DNA from: an uncultured Oceanospirillaceae bacterium
Lineage (GTDB): Bacteria > Pseudomonadota > Gammaproteobacteria > Pseudomonadales > Balneatricaceae
DNA: 64,000 bases
Assembly (NCBI GenBank): GCA_913057435.1
Contig: CAJXNY010000007.1
Location: 1-64,000, forward strand
Direction: 5' to 3'
In this document: piece by piece, positions 27,533 through 32,298 of the stretch
Position numbering within the stretch: the stretch's first letter is position 1
Layout of the letters: the number at the start of each line of letters is the position of its first letter
The notes under the pieces: model-generated
What the model was told of the DNA's origin: nothing
The model's input: only the letters and a program-made list of their open reading frames with translations
Databases searched by the model: none
Position numbers and translations under genes: made by a program

Positions 27533-28345
27533 TTGGCCAAAATTATTGTCGTGACATCCGGAAAAGGCGGTGTCGGAAAAACCACAACCAGCGCAGCGAT
27601 AGGTACAGGTCTTGCGCTGAGCGGCTTCAAAACCGTCGTCATCGACTTTGATGTAGGCCTGCGAAACCTTGATCTGATCATGGGTTGTGAACGTCGTGTG
27701 GTTTACGACTTTGTCAACGTTATCAAACAGGAAGCCACCCTGAACCAGGCCCTGATCAAAGATAAACGCACCGACAACCTGTTTATCCTGCCAGCCTCTC
27801 AGACCCGTGACAAAGACGCGCTGACCCAGGAAGGTGTTGGTACTGTGCTAGACGAACTAGCCGAAACCTTTGATTACATCATCTGTGACTCCCCCGCCGG
27901 TATCGAAAAAGGCGCACAGATGGCGCTGTACTTTGCTGATGTTGCGATTGTCACCACTAACCCGGAAGTCTCCTCTGTGCGTGACTCAGATCGTATTCTG
28001 GGTATTTTGCAGAGCAAGTCACGCCGGGCTGAAAAAGCCGATGAACCGGTGCAGGAACACCTGCTGCTAACCCGCTATAACCCTGCCCGGGTTGATGCTG
28101 GTGAGATGCTCAGCGTATCCGATGTTGAAGATATCCTGGCGATTCCACTGCTGGGTGTTATTCCAGAATCTGAGGCCGTACTCAAAGCCTCGAACTCGGG
28201 TACACCGGTGATTCTGGACAGTGCTTCAGATGCGGGCCAGGCCTACGATGATGCCGTACAGCGATTGCTGGGCAAAGAGCTGGAACATCGCTTCCTTCAC
28301 GCACCGAAGAAAGGATTCTTCCAGCGGTTCCTGGGAGGTAAATAA
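27533..28345 (+). CDS. minD: septum site-determining ATPase MinD
   Basis: A 270-residue deviant Walker A ATPase: GKGGVGKTT at about residues 10-18, [10 protein letters not shown], and the C-terminal amphipathic membrane-targeting helix [12 protein letters not shown]. It recruits MinC to the membrane and oscillates with MinE. The start is TTG, fixed by the conserved [14 protein letters not shown]-terminus and an AGGAGCGG site. The last base of its stop codon is the first base of minE. Confidence 0.97.
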
Positions 28346-28596
28346 TGAGTTTCTTCGACTACTTCCGAAGCAAGGCGCAACCAACCTCCGCGGAACTGGC
28401 CAAAGAGCGGCTGCAGATCATCGTCGCCCATGAGCGCGGCGCACGGGCAAACCCGGATTACCTGCCCCAGATGCAGCAAGAGATCATCGCGGTGATCAAG
28501 AAATACATTGCCATTGATCAGGATCAGGTCAGCGTGCAGCTGGACAGCAACGATGACTGCTCCGTACTCGAGGTTAACGTTACCCTCCCCGATTGA
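28345..28596 (+). CDS. minE: cell division topological specificity factor MinE
   Basis: An 83-residue MinE. The N-terminal membrane and MinD-binding helix begins [10 protein letters not shown] and [13 protein letters not shown]; the C-terminal dimerisation domain carries the [18 protein letters not shown] region. It stimulates MinD ATPase and confines MinCD to the poles. It overlaps minD by one base (TAATG). A weak hairpin TGCCCGCTG/CAGCGGGCA follows at 28616-28643. Confidence 0.96.
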
Positions 28597-28707
28597 TCAG
28601 AGCAGCGATAACAAGTGCCCGCTGTGATGCTGTTCAGCGGGCATATTCCGACAACAGACTTCCCCAGCCCAGCGGTGGCAGTCCCCCTGTTCAACGGATG
28701 AATCCCC

Positions 28708-29376
28708 ATGCAAAGCAACGGCATCGGTGCCTACAGCAATAACCTCCCCACCCAGCCACGGAGCACTGGCACGGCTGCCGCCACTGGCGCAGCGGCCACA
28801 ACAGCCGTCCAGAACAAAGCCGAGGACAACTCGGACAAATCCGTCACAACCCGCTTTTCATCCCGCGCGGCCCGGCTTGCCAGGCTAAACCAGGAATTTG
28901 ATCTGGCCGACCCCGAGTTTCATATTAGCGAGAGCTTTCTCACTCGCATGACCCAGCTGGCGCTATTACGCCATGATGAAGCCCAGGTGCTGATTACCCG
29001 CCTGCCACAACCTGTCGATGCAGAGCCCCGGACTGAATCACTGTCGATCATGGAAGCTTTTCTGGAACAGCTGGCCAACGTTCTGAGCACACAACCCGAG
29101 CGAGCACCACTGGTTAACGTTCTGCGCGATACCCGCATCATCCTTGATCATATGGAAGTCTCCCAGTCCCGCGCCCATGATGCCGAAATCGGCACTACGC
29201 TGGCAGCACTGGGGCTGCATTTCAGCGCCGAAAACGCGCCCGTCATCCCTGCGCACCATCATCAGACCCTGGAAGATATACGCACCGCCATGGTCGTGGC
29301 ATACAAGCTGAACCCGGTCAGCCACAACAACGATCAGCTGAACGCCTATGCCCGTGTTTCCGGCAACCATATATAA
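28708..29376 (+). CDS. uncharacterised protein, first of two tandem paralogues
   Basis: A 222-residue protein I do not recognise. Residues 1-50 are low-complexity (Ala, Thr, Ser, Asn) with no signal peptide. The rest is helical and aligns with the next gene: FSSRAARLARLNQEFD here against FSTRAEKLAALNSEFD there, then a helix with RM.QL.L, a mid-region with NVLRDTRIILDHMEVSQS, and the C-terminal block VAYKLNPVSHNNDQLNAYARVSG. There are no cysteines, membrane helices or catalytic motifs. The Shine-Dalgarno region is weak. It lies 111 nt after minE. The flexible polar N-terminus recalls proteins exported by flagellar or type III routes, which is only a guess. Confidence 0.7.
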   Translation: MQSNGIGAYSNNLPTQPRSTGTAAATGAAATTAVQNKAEDNSDKSVTTRFSSRAARLARLNQEFDLADPEFHISESFLTRMTQLALLRHDEAQVLITRLPQPVDAEPRTESLSIMEAFLEQLANVLSTQPERAPLVNVLRDTRIILDHMEVSQSRAHDAEIGTTLAALGLHFSAENAPVIPAHHHQTLEDIRTAMVVAYKLNPVSHNNDQLNAYARVSGNHI

Positions 29377-29446
29377 GCACTGGCTATAAGCGGCAAACCT
29401 TTGCCTGATAGATCCGCTTTTCAGCGCCACAGAGCAGAATACAGCA

Positions 29447-29463
29447 AGGCACGGAAATTGCTT
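29447..29463 (+). promoter_or_regulatory. sigma-54 (RpoN) promoter upstream of the second paralogue
   Basis: AGGCACGGAAATTGCTT fits the -24/-12 consensus TGGCACG-N4-TTGCW at all positions but the first, with GG (29448-29449) and GC (29460-29461) exactly 10 nt apart. Transcription would start near 29473, 35 nt before the ATG at 29508. An enhancer-binding activator would be required. Confidence 0.75.
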
Positions 29464-29507
29464 ATTCCGGAACAAACAAACGTTTACCGTTTACAGGGAA
29501 GCCGTAG

Positions 29508-30161
29508 ATGAACACGATCAGCAGTTATACAGCGCCAGCCAATGCCGCCGCTACCACCAGCAACGCGGCTGTCACGGACGCCACCACAACCGCAGCCACA
29601 ACTGACGAGAGCAGCGAGCAGAAACCCGCCGCACAGTTCTCCACCCGCGCAGAGAAGCTGGCTGCACTGAACAGTGAATTTGATATCGTCAGCCCAAGCT
29701 TCAAACTGAGTCAGCAATTTGTTAACCGTATGGCTGAACTGGACCTTATTTCAGCCAGTGATGCTGAAGGCCTCAATACAGACTTACCCCTGACAGCCAG
29801 CAGCGGTACAGACGAAGCCGATACGGTAGGTGAGCTGACCACGTTTATCGACTCTTTCAGCGCCAAACTGGAGAAGCAGGAAGACGCACCCAGCGGGCTG
29901 CTGGAGATCCTGCAGAATTCAAAATCCATTCTGCAAAACCTGGATGGTTCCAAATCAAAAACGTTTGAAGCTGACATCCCTGAAACTGCGGCTGCGCTGG
30001 CCGATTATTTGCGCAGCAGTGATGCCAGCAGCCTGTCGGACAGTGAAACAAAGTCACTGAACGACCTGCATACCGCCCTGACTGTCGCGGACAAACTGAA
30101 CCCGACCAGCCGCACATCTGACAACATCAACGCCTATATGCGTGTGATGGGCGACCTCTAG
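29508..30161 (+). CDS. uncharacterised protein, second of two tandem paralogues
   Basis: A 217-residue protein paralogous to the preceding one. The N-terminal ~45 residues are very rich in Ala and Thr (SNAAVTDATTTAATT). Shared blocks are FSTRAEKLAALNSEFDIVSPSF, the RMAELDLIS helix, LEILQNSKSILQNLDGSKS and VADKLNPTSRTSDNINAYMRVMGDL. It has no cysteine, signal peptide or membrane segment. AGGGAAG lies about 8 nt before the ATG, a good ribosome site. A strong sigma-54 promoter match upstream suggests co-expression with a sigma-54 regulon, in marine gammaproteobacteria often motility. Function unknown. Confidence 0.75.
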   Translation: MNTISSYTAPANAAATTSNAAVTDATTTAATTDESSEQKPAAQFSTRAEKLAALNSEFDIVSPSFKLSQQFVNRMAELDLISASDAEGLNTDLPLTASSGTDEADTVGELTTFIDSFSAKLEKQEDAPSGLLEILQNSKSILQNLDGSKSKTFEADIPETAAALADYLRSSDASSLSDSETKSLNDLHTALTVADKLNPTSRTSDNINAYMRVMGDL

Positions 30162-30187
30162 CACACCGATTGTAGCAACAGCGCAGG

Positions 30188-31096
30188 CTATGAATTTAGC
30201 CCAAACTGTTGCTGCAGTTTCTCACTGAGTAACTGTCCGGCCCGGCCCACTGGCTGATCAAGCCGCCGCACCAGCATCGGGGTATAGCGGTGACGTGAAC
30301 CGCCCAGGTAATCCAGCTCCACCAGCGTTCCCGCCTGCAGCTCATCTTCCACCTGGTCCAGTGGCATCCAGCCGTAGCCCAGTGCCATCATTAATGCTTC
30401 TTTCTTAGCCCTGAAATCACTGAGGTAGAATACTCGCTCCCCGCCAAAGGTCTGGGTGCCGCCATGGGCTTTACTGTAACTGGAATCATGCACGGTCAGC
30501 TCAACATGCTGTTGCAACACCGCCAGCTCAGCCCCTTTGGCCAGTGCTAGTGGGTGCTCCGGCGCAACCACCAATACGGTTTCAAGATCAGCCAGTGCCT
30601 GCACGGATAAACGAGTATCCGAGAGTGGTACCAGGGTCAGCATCAGCTCAGCCCCGGCCTGTTCAAAGCGTTGGCTTACGCCTCCCAGAAACTCTACCCG
30701 CAACTGGATATGGGTCGGAATATTCAAGTCAGCCATCTCTTTAAGCACTGCCAGCAAGCGCGCACTGGGCAACATGCCATCAACCACCAGCTCCAGCCGC
30801 GGCTCCCAGCCCTCTGAAAACTGCTCCACCAGGCTGGAAACATACTGCGCCTGGTCCAGCAACCGCTGTCCTTCCACCAGAATTCGCTCCCCCACCGGGG
30901 TCAGTTCGGCCCGATAAGCTGAACGGTCAAACACCGCCGTACCCAGCTGTTGCTCTAACTTGTGTACCTGATAACTCACCGCCGACTGGGTTTTATTCAG
31001 TGCGAGTGCTGCCCGGGCAAAACTGCCTTCGCGCACCACGGTACTGAGCACCCGCAGACCCTCCAGATCAACCGTCATCGTCGCTGTAAACTCCAT
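30188..31096 (-). CDS. LysR family transcriptional regulator divergent from hppd
   Basis: About 302 residues. The helix-turn-helix reads GLRVLSTVVREGSFARAALALNKTQSAVSYQVHKLE, followed by a LysR substrate-binding domain. ATG 31096 is used; TTG 31099 and ATG 31078 (protein starting MTVDLEGL) are alternatives. It is divergent from 4-hydroxyphenylpyruvate dioxygenase with about 165 bp between them, including AATTATCTGATCAAGTTAAG near 31109, a possible LysR-type site. Control of tyrosine breakdown is inferred from position only. Confidence 0.88.
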   Translation of the reverse strand: MEFTATMTVDLEGLRVLSTVVREGSFARAALALNKTQSAVSYQVHKLEQQLGTAVFDRSAYRAELTPVGERILVEGQRLLDQAQYVSSLVEQFSEGWEPRLELVVDGMLPSARLLAVLKEMADLNIPTHIQLRVEFLGGVSQRFEQAGAELMLTLVPLSDTRLSVQALADLETVLVVAPEHPLALAKGAELAVLQQHVELTVHDSSYSKAHGGTQTFGGERVFYLSDFRAKKEALMMALGYGWMPLDQVEDELQAGTLVELDYLGGSRHRYTPMLVRRLDQPVGRAGQLLSEKLQQQFGLNS

Positions 31097-31263: not shown

Positions 31264-32298
31264 ATGAGCAATAATCCACTGAATCTGCGCGGTATCGAGT
31301 TCACCGAATTTGCCAGCCCGGATACGGATTTCATGCATGATGTGTTCACGGCGTTCGGCTTCTCTAAACTCAAACGTCACGCCGAACGCAATATCAGCTA
31401 TTACAATCAGAACGGCATCCACTTCCTGCTCAACCATGAGCGTGAAGGTTTCTCCGCGGGCTTCGCCAAATCCCACGGCCCGGCAATCTGCTCCATGGGC
31501 TGGCGGGTAGACGATGCCGCCCAGTCCCAGGCCGAAGCCGTGAAGCGTGGCGCCCGCGCCGTCGCTGATGCAGACAAGGATCTGCCATACCCAGCCATTT
31601 ACGGCATTGGCAACAGCCTGATCTACCTGATCGACACCTTCGGTGATAAAGGCTCCATCTACGACGCAGATTTTGTAGCGCTGGATGACGCCGTGATCGT
31701 GCCAGATCTGGGCTTTATTGAAATCGACCACCTGACCAACAACGTCTTTAAAGGCACCATGCATCAGTGGGCCGATTTCTATAAGGATGTATTTGGCTTT
31801 GAAGAGGTGCGTTACTTCGATATCAAAGGCCAGAAAACTGCCCTGATCTCCTATGCCCTGCGCTCACCGGACGGCAGCTTCTGCATTCCGATCAACGAAG
31901 GCAAGGACGATAACAACAACCAGATTGATGAATACCTGAACCAGTACAATGGCCCAGGCGTACAACACATCGCCTTTCGCAGTGATGATCTGCTGGCCTC
32001 ACTGGATAAACTCGATCGTGCCGTTATCGATACCCTGGATATCCACGACAACTACTATCAGGAAGTGTTTGATCGGGTGCCTAATGTCACTGAAGATCCG
32101 CAACGGATTCAGGATCACCAGGTACTGGTCGATGGCGACGACAACGGCTACCTGCTACAGATCTTTACCAAAAACCTGTTTGGCCCAATTTTTATCGAGC
32201 TGATTCAGCGTAAAGAAAACCTCGGCTTTGGCGAAGGCAACTTCCAGGCCCTGTTCGAGTCTATCGAACGTGACCAGGAACGCCGCGGCGTCATCTGA
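31264..32298 (+). CDS. hppD: 4-hydroxyphenylpyruvate dioxygenase
   Basis: A 344-residue HPPD with two vicinal-oxygen-chelate halves. The Fe(II) ligands are recognisable: His in EIDHLTNNV, His in GPGVQHIAF and Glu in GPIFIELIQR. The C-terminal gate helix GEGNFQALFESIERDQERRG is typical. It turns 4-hydroxyphenylpyruvate into homogentisate in tyrosine catabolism. The length matches Pseudomonas-type enzymes (about 350). The ribosome site is CAGGAG. It stands alone here, without hmgA or fahA. Confidence 0.95.
   Translation: MSNNPLNLRGIEFTEFASPDTDFMHDVFTAFGFSKLKRHAERNISYYNQNGIHFLLNHEREGFSAGFAKSHGPAICSMGWRVDDAAQSQAEAVKRGARAVADADKDLPYPAIYGIGNSLIYLIDTFGDKGSIYDADFVALDDAVIVPDLGFIEIDHLTNNVFKGTMHQWADFYKDVFGFEEVRYFDIKGQKTALISYALRSPDGSFCIPINEGKDDNNNQIDEYLNQYNGPGVQHIAFRSDDLLASLDKLDRAVIDTLDIHDNYYQEVFDRVPNVTEDPQRIQDHQVLVDGDDNGYLLQIFTKNLFGPIFIELIQRKENLGFGEGNFQALFESIERDQERRGVI

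Follow-up and report, generated by a model that had tools for sequence, protein, structure and literature searches.

A tandem gene pair downstream of minCDE probably represents a FlgM-like family, so far undescribed, in the flagellar sigma-54 regulon

The anti-sigma-28 factor FlgM times the assembly of the flagellum, and the flagellar export chaperones, which serve the same organelle, are built without a long disordered N-terminus. With regard to transcription, the promoters of flgBCDE and flgFGHIJKL are reported to be recognised by FleR of P. aeruginosa (PMC8335546). Here we describe two neighbouring genes in a 64,000-nucleotide stretch of DNA from an uncultured Oceanospirillaceae bacterium (hereafter the window), which probably belong to a protein family not described before, FlgM-like and part of the flagellar sigma-54 regulon, with an export-coupled substrate or regulator as its product.

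The two open reading frames reported in the initial annotation were confirmed on the plus strand, 3' of minC, minD and minE: gene A (28708..29376) encodes 222 aa and gene B (29508..30161) 217 aa. Their paralogy was borne out by BLASTP (34% identity over 184 aa, E 6e-32), the helical blocks that had been quoted for them (FS[ST]RA..LA.LN.EFD and KLNP.S....D..NAY.RV.G) are conserved, and each gene evolves under purifying selection, with a dN/dS of ~0.115 against the nearest relative (G003). As had been read from the translations, there is no cysteine and no membrane helix in either protein; Cys and Trp both count zero in A and in B, and the maximal 19-residue hydropathy mean (0.87 in A, 0.36 in B) is below transmembrane strength. 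The low-complexity, polar N-termini took the form of an enrichment in S/T/A/N/Q, with 26/41 residues in A and 30/41 in B. An Rfam search over 28000-30600 gave no match. In the interval between minE and A, a hairpin read by eye, TGCCCGCTG...CAGCGGGCA (28616..28643, plus strand), has no T-run and is possibly the end of the min transcript. Beyond B, the window has one 4-hydroxyphenylpyruvate dioxygenase-like gene (31264-32298), where genome G001 (L013, 10125-12639) has two closely similar ones in tandem.

The sigma-54 promoter first noticed on the second gene is real: the -24/-12 site AGGCACGGAAATTGCT (29447..29462, plus strand), 61 nt upstream of the B start codon, is the sole one-mismatch match in the window, and no such site was found before A. 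Scanning 55 members of the family for TGGCACG-N4-TTGCW (GG/GC intact, at most three mismatches, within 130 nt of the start codon), we found a site in 46 of them, B included and A not, compared with 21/460 neighbouring genes (p 4e-40, a value which, like that for the palindrome below, overstates independence since related sequences are counted separately, the effect being large nevertheless). The median distance from site to start codon is 52 nt, and B is the copy that keeps this flagellar-type promoter of the family. A dyad count over the 200 nt upstream of the 46 sites, with no motif supplied, returned AGCGGCAA in 22/46, against a maximum of 5 in shuffles. This is one half of the palindrome AGCGGCAA-N4-TTGCCGCT, which is present at 12/16 or better in 29/55 members and in 14/430 controls (p 3e-21, with the same overstated independence). 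The copy before B, AGCGGCAAACCTTTGCCTGA (29389..29408, plus strand), matches it at 13/16 and stands as an enhancer candidate 58 nt upstream of the sigma-54 site. Across members the spacing between the two elements clusters at 58-60, 69-72, 81-84, 90-93 and 102-104 nt and keeps to the helical phase (Rayleigh p 3e-5, several periods tried, best 10.5-11), which is what a real enhancer predicts. NtrC-type enhancers were considered and showed no enrichment upstream of the family; a FleQ-like site was mildly enriched (11 vs 3.9), the palindrome far more strongly.

The same arrangement of palindrome and sigma-54 site precedes flagellar genes, the ORFs that we call flgB, flgE, flgF, fliK, glnA, groEL and hemN being taken as such from recognition of their sequences. 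Palindromes were seen before flgB and flgF at L177, L186 and L188. Of the five genomes examined, three (this genome, G324 and G014) have the pair of elements before flgB, and one of them, G324, has it before flgF as well; it was not found before flgB of G170 and G551, and flgF and fliK of this genome are preceded by a weak palindrome or by none. Overall, the 400 kb that surround the flagellar clusters of five genomes contain six such pairs, compared with none in 20 simulations. At the non-flagellar gene glnA of this genome, the promoter has a sigma-54 site but the palindrome is missing. Since the flgBCDE and flgFGHIJKL promoters are reported targets of FleR in P. aeruginosa, we infer that an activator of the FlrC/FleR type is the likely reader of the palindrome, which we propose as a candidate site for such a protein; our literature search found no published FlrC/FleR palindrome. 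Separately, two flgE-like hook genes lie in tandem in this genome (L177, 13233 and 16061), each with a sigma-54 site.

Co-occurrence points in the same direction. With FlhA and FlgM identified by curated models, FlhA is found in 28/28 clear carriers of the family within the order and in 293/392 genomes overall (p 2e-4, uncorrected for phylogeny). In f39, the best-sampled taxonomic family, where a profile search found the gene in 40/45 genomes, both genomes that lack FlhA are among the five without the gene; the assemblies of the remaining three are incomplete or fragmented. Membership of the family in the flagellar sigma-54 regulon is thus a conclusion we hold with considerable confidence. A surface or stress protein under sigma-54 control and of non-flagellar function, for which co-occurrence and palindrome would be coincidental to another activator, would suit genes that are solitary, outside flagellar operons, and a palindrome that is imperfect at some flagellar promoters of this genome. 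We regard it as improbable, since palindrome and sigma-54 site together mark flgB and flgF and not glnA, the gene is lost along with FlhA in f39, and FlgM is the top match of the family in two libraries.

Within the genus the family is present in 4/4 genomes: A and B lie 3' of minE in G000, G001 and G003, and in G002 a single B-type gene directly follows minE. This association of the pair with minE is true of this genus only. Outside it there is mostly a single gene at unrelated positions, for example convergent with groEL (G014) or adjoining hemN (G041), with no min genes near the homologues, no conserved gene neighbours across families that hint at partners, and no member, among those found, inside a flagellar operon. 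An accessory role in the Min division system, to which the position directly after minE in the genus would point, was therefore rejected as very improbable, B moreover having a sigma-54 promoter of its own; the context after minCDE is incidental. Profile searches recovered clear members in 28/392 genomes of the order, spread over several of its families, and in two further families of the class outside the order, so that the family is conserved in related genomes; a tblastn search of plasmids gave no match. Many flagellated relatives are without it, and we consider it accessory for this reason.

The gene duplication proposed in the initial annotation is correct, and A arose inside the genus, given the single B-type gene after minE in G002 and the single genes in other genera. 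In the tree the A/B duplication likewise falls inside the genus; the branch leading to A is long, and support for the fork is moderate. Gene A, a divergent tandem paralogue, is on balance best explained as a genus-specific duplicate that lost its promoter and diverged quickly; it may be expressed by read-through from the min operon, or have a promoter that we did not recognise. The earlier suggestion of exported or structural partners, made with the sigma-54 promoter in mind, fits the flagellar evidence; its other part, a pair generally retained for a joint role, is not supported, since relatives mostly have one gene and A lacks a sigma-54 site. An exported structural or filament-associated flagellar component, of which A and B formed partner subunits in the genus, would be compatible with a duplicate maintained by purifying selection, with the Cys- and Trp-poor sequence and polar N-terminus, and with a sigma-54 timing like that of flgB and flgF. 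We find it unlikely, because A has no sigma-54 promoter, relatives carry either a lone gene or unlike paralogues, most flagellated relatives are without the family, and a mean column identity as low as that reported below is unusual for a lattice subunit.

At the protein level, the N-terminal 40 residues of the family are 60% S/T/A/N/Q compared with 31% in controls, and Cys is absent from 31/32 full-length members, where ~9% would be expected to lack it. Conservation is very low, with a mean column identity of 18% over 51 members. AlphaFold models built on a four-sequence alignment (pLDDT 50-56) have a disordered N-terminus and helices, and Foldseek against the PDB with these low-confidence models found no match. 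The view that A and B belong to no recognised family was upheld: no curated family passes its cut-off, single-protein searches of Pfam, NCBIfam, PHROGs and PDB sequences gave nothing above threshold, and our literature search found no description of the family. When the 51 members were scanned singly, FlgM was the model matched most often, TIGR03824 of NCBIfam by eight members (best 9.5e-4) and Pfam PF04316 by four (best 0.0039), the curated cut-off not being reached (best 19.9 bits vs 40.75). When 25 genomes were searched with PF04316, the best match below threshold was a family member. Conversely, of the 12 genome hits that scored lowest with the family profile, 10 (small ORFs, fetched) read as FlgM; one fetched long-ORF weak hit was not FlgM.

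What the family shares with FlgM is a helix-1 motif, D/E.V.LS..A..L, following a disordered N-terminus, features of a kind that may be analogous and not homologous. In controls with decoys, column shuffles and reversed sequences, the FlgM signal was real against decoys and confined to the N-terminal region plus ~17 helix-1 residues; whole-domain homology was not upheld beyond that helix. The C-terminal, sigma-28-binding part (AI.NG.Y..D...A..L; FlgM positions 18-60) gave no signal above decoys worth naming, and the hhalign probability of the family against FlgM was 8-21%. Furthermore, a true FlgM is encoded separately in 24/25 genomes searched, this one included, the exception being the 71%-complete G003. 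Since the signal stops at helix 1 and FlgM is present in its own right, that the family works like FlgM makes a fair working hypothesis, and that it is FlgM does not. Taken together, flagellum-type gene control and this faint resemblance suggest that A and B are probably flagellar parts or regulators, not cell-division genes.

We hypothesise that A and B belong to a fast-evolving family, so far undescribed, within the class III, FlrC/FleR-type regulon of marine Pseudomonadales, B being transcribed from its -24/-12 promoter under the upstream palindromic enhancer. Since the same promoter arrangement also stands before flgB and flgF, B would be produced while the hook and basal body are being built. 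Its product would comprise, in order, a disordered, S/T/A/N/Q-rich and Cys-free N-terminus like that of export substrates, a helix 1 with the FlgM motif, and a helical C-terminal domain of its own. The protein would stay intracellular up to the switch of the export apparatus, and would then exit or swap partner and so report the assembly stage, acting in the manner of FlgM though not being FlgM. Composition and motif lead us to favour, by a modest degree, export-coupled action of this kind, and we incline likewise to the explanation as a whole; the export, the partner and the checkpoint role are inferred parts of it. More tentatively, the family could be a second, FlgM-derived checkpoint, in which the export leader and helix 1 of FlgM were kept and the sigma-28-binding part was swapped for a new helical domain. 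The aiming of that domain at another partner would be an equally tentative part of this, as would repeated duplication, with A and B here and full-length, N-type and C-type genes in f39.

These f39 genes are diverged paralogues, of which the N-type are ~150 aa and the C-type ~145 aa long. The full-length and C-type genes occupy a common position, the preceding gene carrying a conserved 'SLYEELHNRPSP' motif; C-type members (L102, L104, L105, L109 and others) consist of the C-terminal half only, at the same locus and with the sigma-54 site mostly kept, and seem to have lost the FlgM-like N-terminal part. N-type members (L057, L103, L174) lie 29-60 nt before a gene whose product, possibly an outer-membrane protein, shows 'NIEE(K)R' following its N-terminus; the two genes apparently form a conserved unit. 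The retention of the C-terminal half alone in C-type members would also suit a non-exported member of the regulon, a cytosolic protein that acts as adaptor or regulator and binds for instance FliA, FlhF/FlhG, a chaperone or an MCP array protein. Evidence from promoter, enhancer and co-occurrence is equally shared by such a protein, the FlgM-like part does not include the helical C-terminal domain, and some relatives' members adjoin chemoreceptor-like genes. The Cys-free sequence of 31/32 full-length members and the FlgM-like N-terminus point instead to export, and no conserved neighbour gene names a partner. We see the cytosolic adaptor as a possibility of the second rank, and within it service of the disordered N-terminus in partner binding, not in export, as no more probable.

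Flagellar gene lists for polar flagellates come mainly from Pseudomonas and Vibrio; in other marine Gammaproteobacteria, the present results add an unnamed family to the flagellar regulon. Here promoter architecture identifies a family where protein similarity fails, and AGCGGCAA-N4-TTGCCGCT with its helical phasing offers a candidate activator-site motif for annotating flagellar promoters. The family may also serve as a test case for the diversification of FlgM-type export checkpoints. Among known systems, the FlrC/FleR-dependent class III genes (flgB and flgF operons) have a sigma-54 site with the palindrome 60-105 nt upstream, as here, but those operons are large and encode conserved rod and hook parts, whereas this family is variable and mostly stands alone. 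The export chaperones FlgN, FliT and FliS are likewise small helical proteins with a flagellar association; a weak FlgN match was seen for one member (E 0.034), and similarity to the chaperones is not consistent. FlgM (PF04316, TIGR03824) is likest in its disordered polar N-terminus, helix-1 motif and flagellated hosts, but it is ~100 aa long compared with ~220 aa for this family, which, unlike FlgM, has its own helical C-terminal domain and does not adjoin flgA/flgN.
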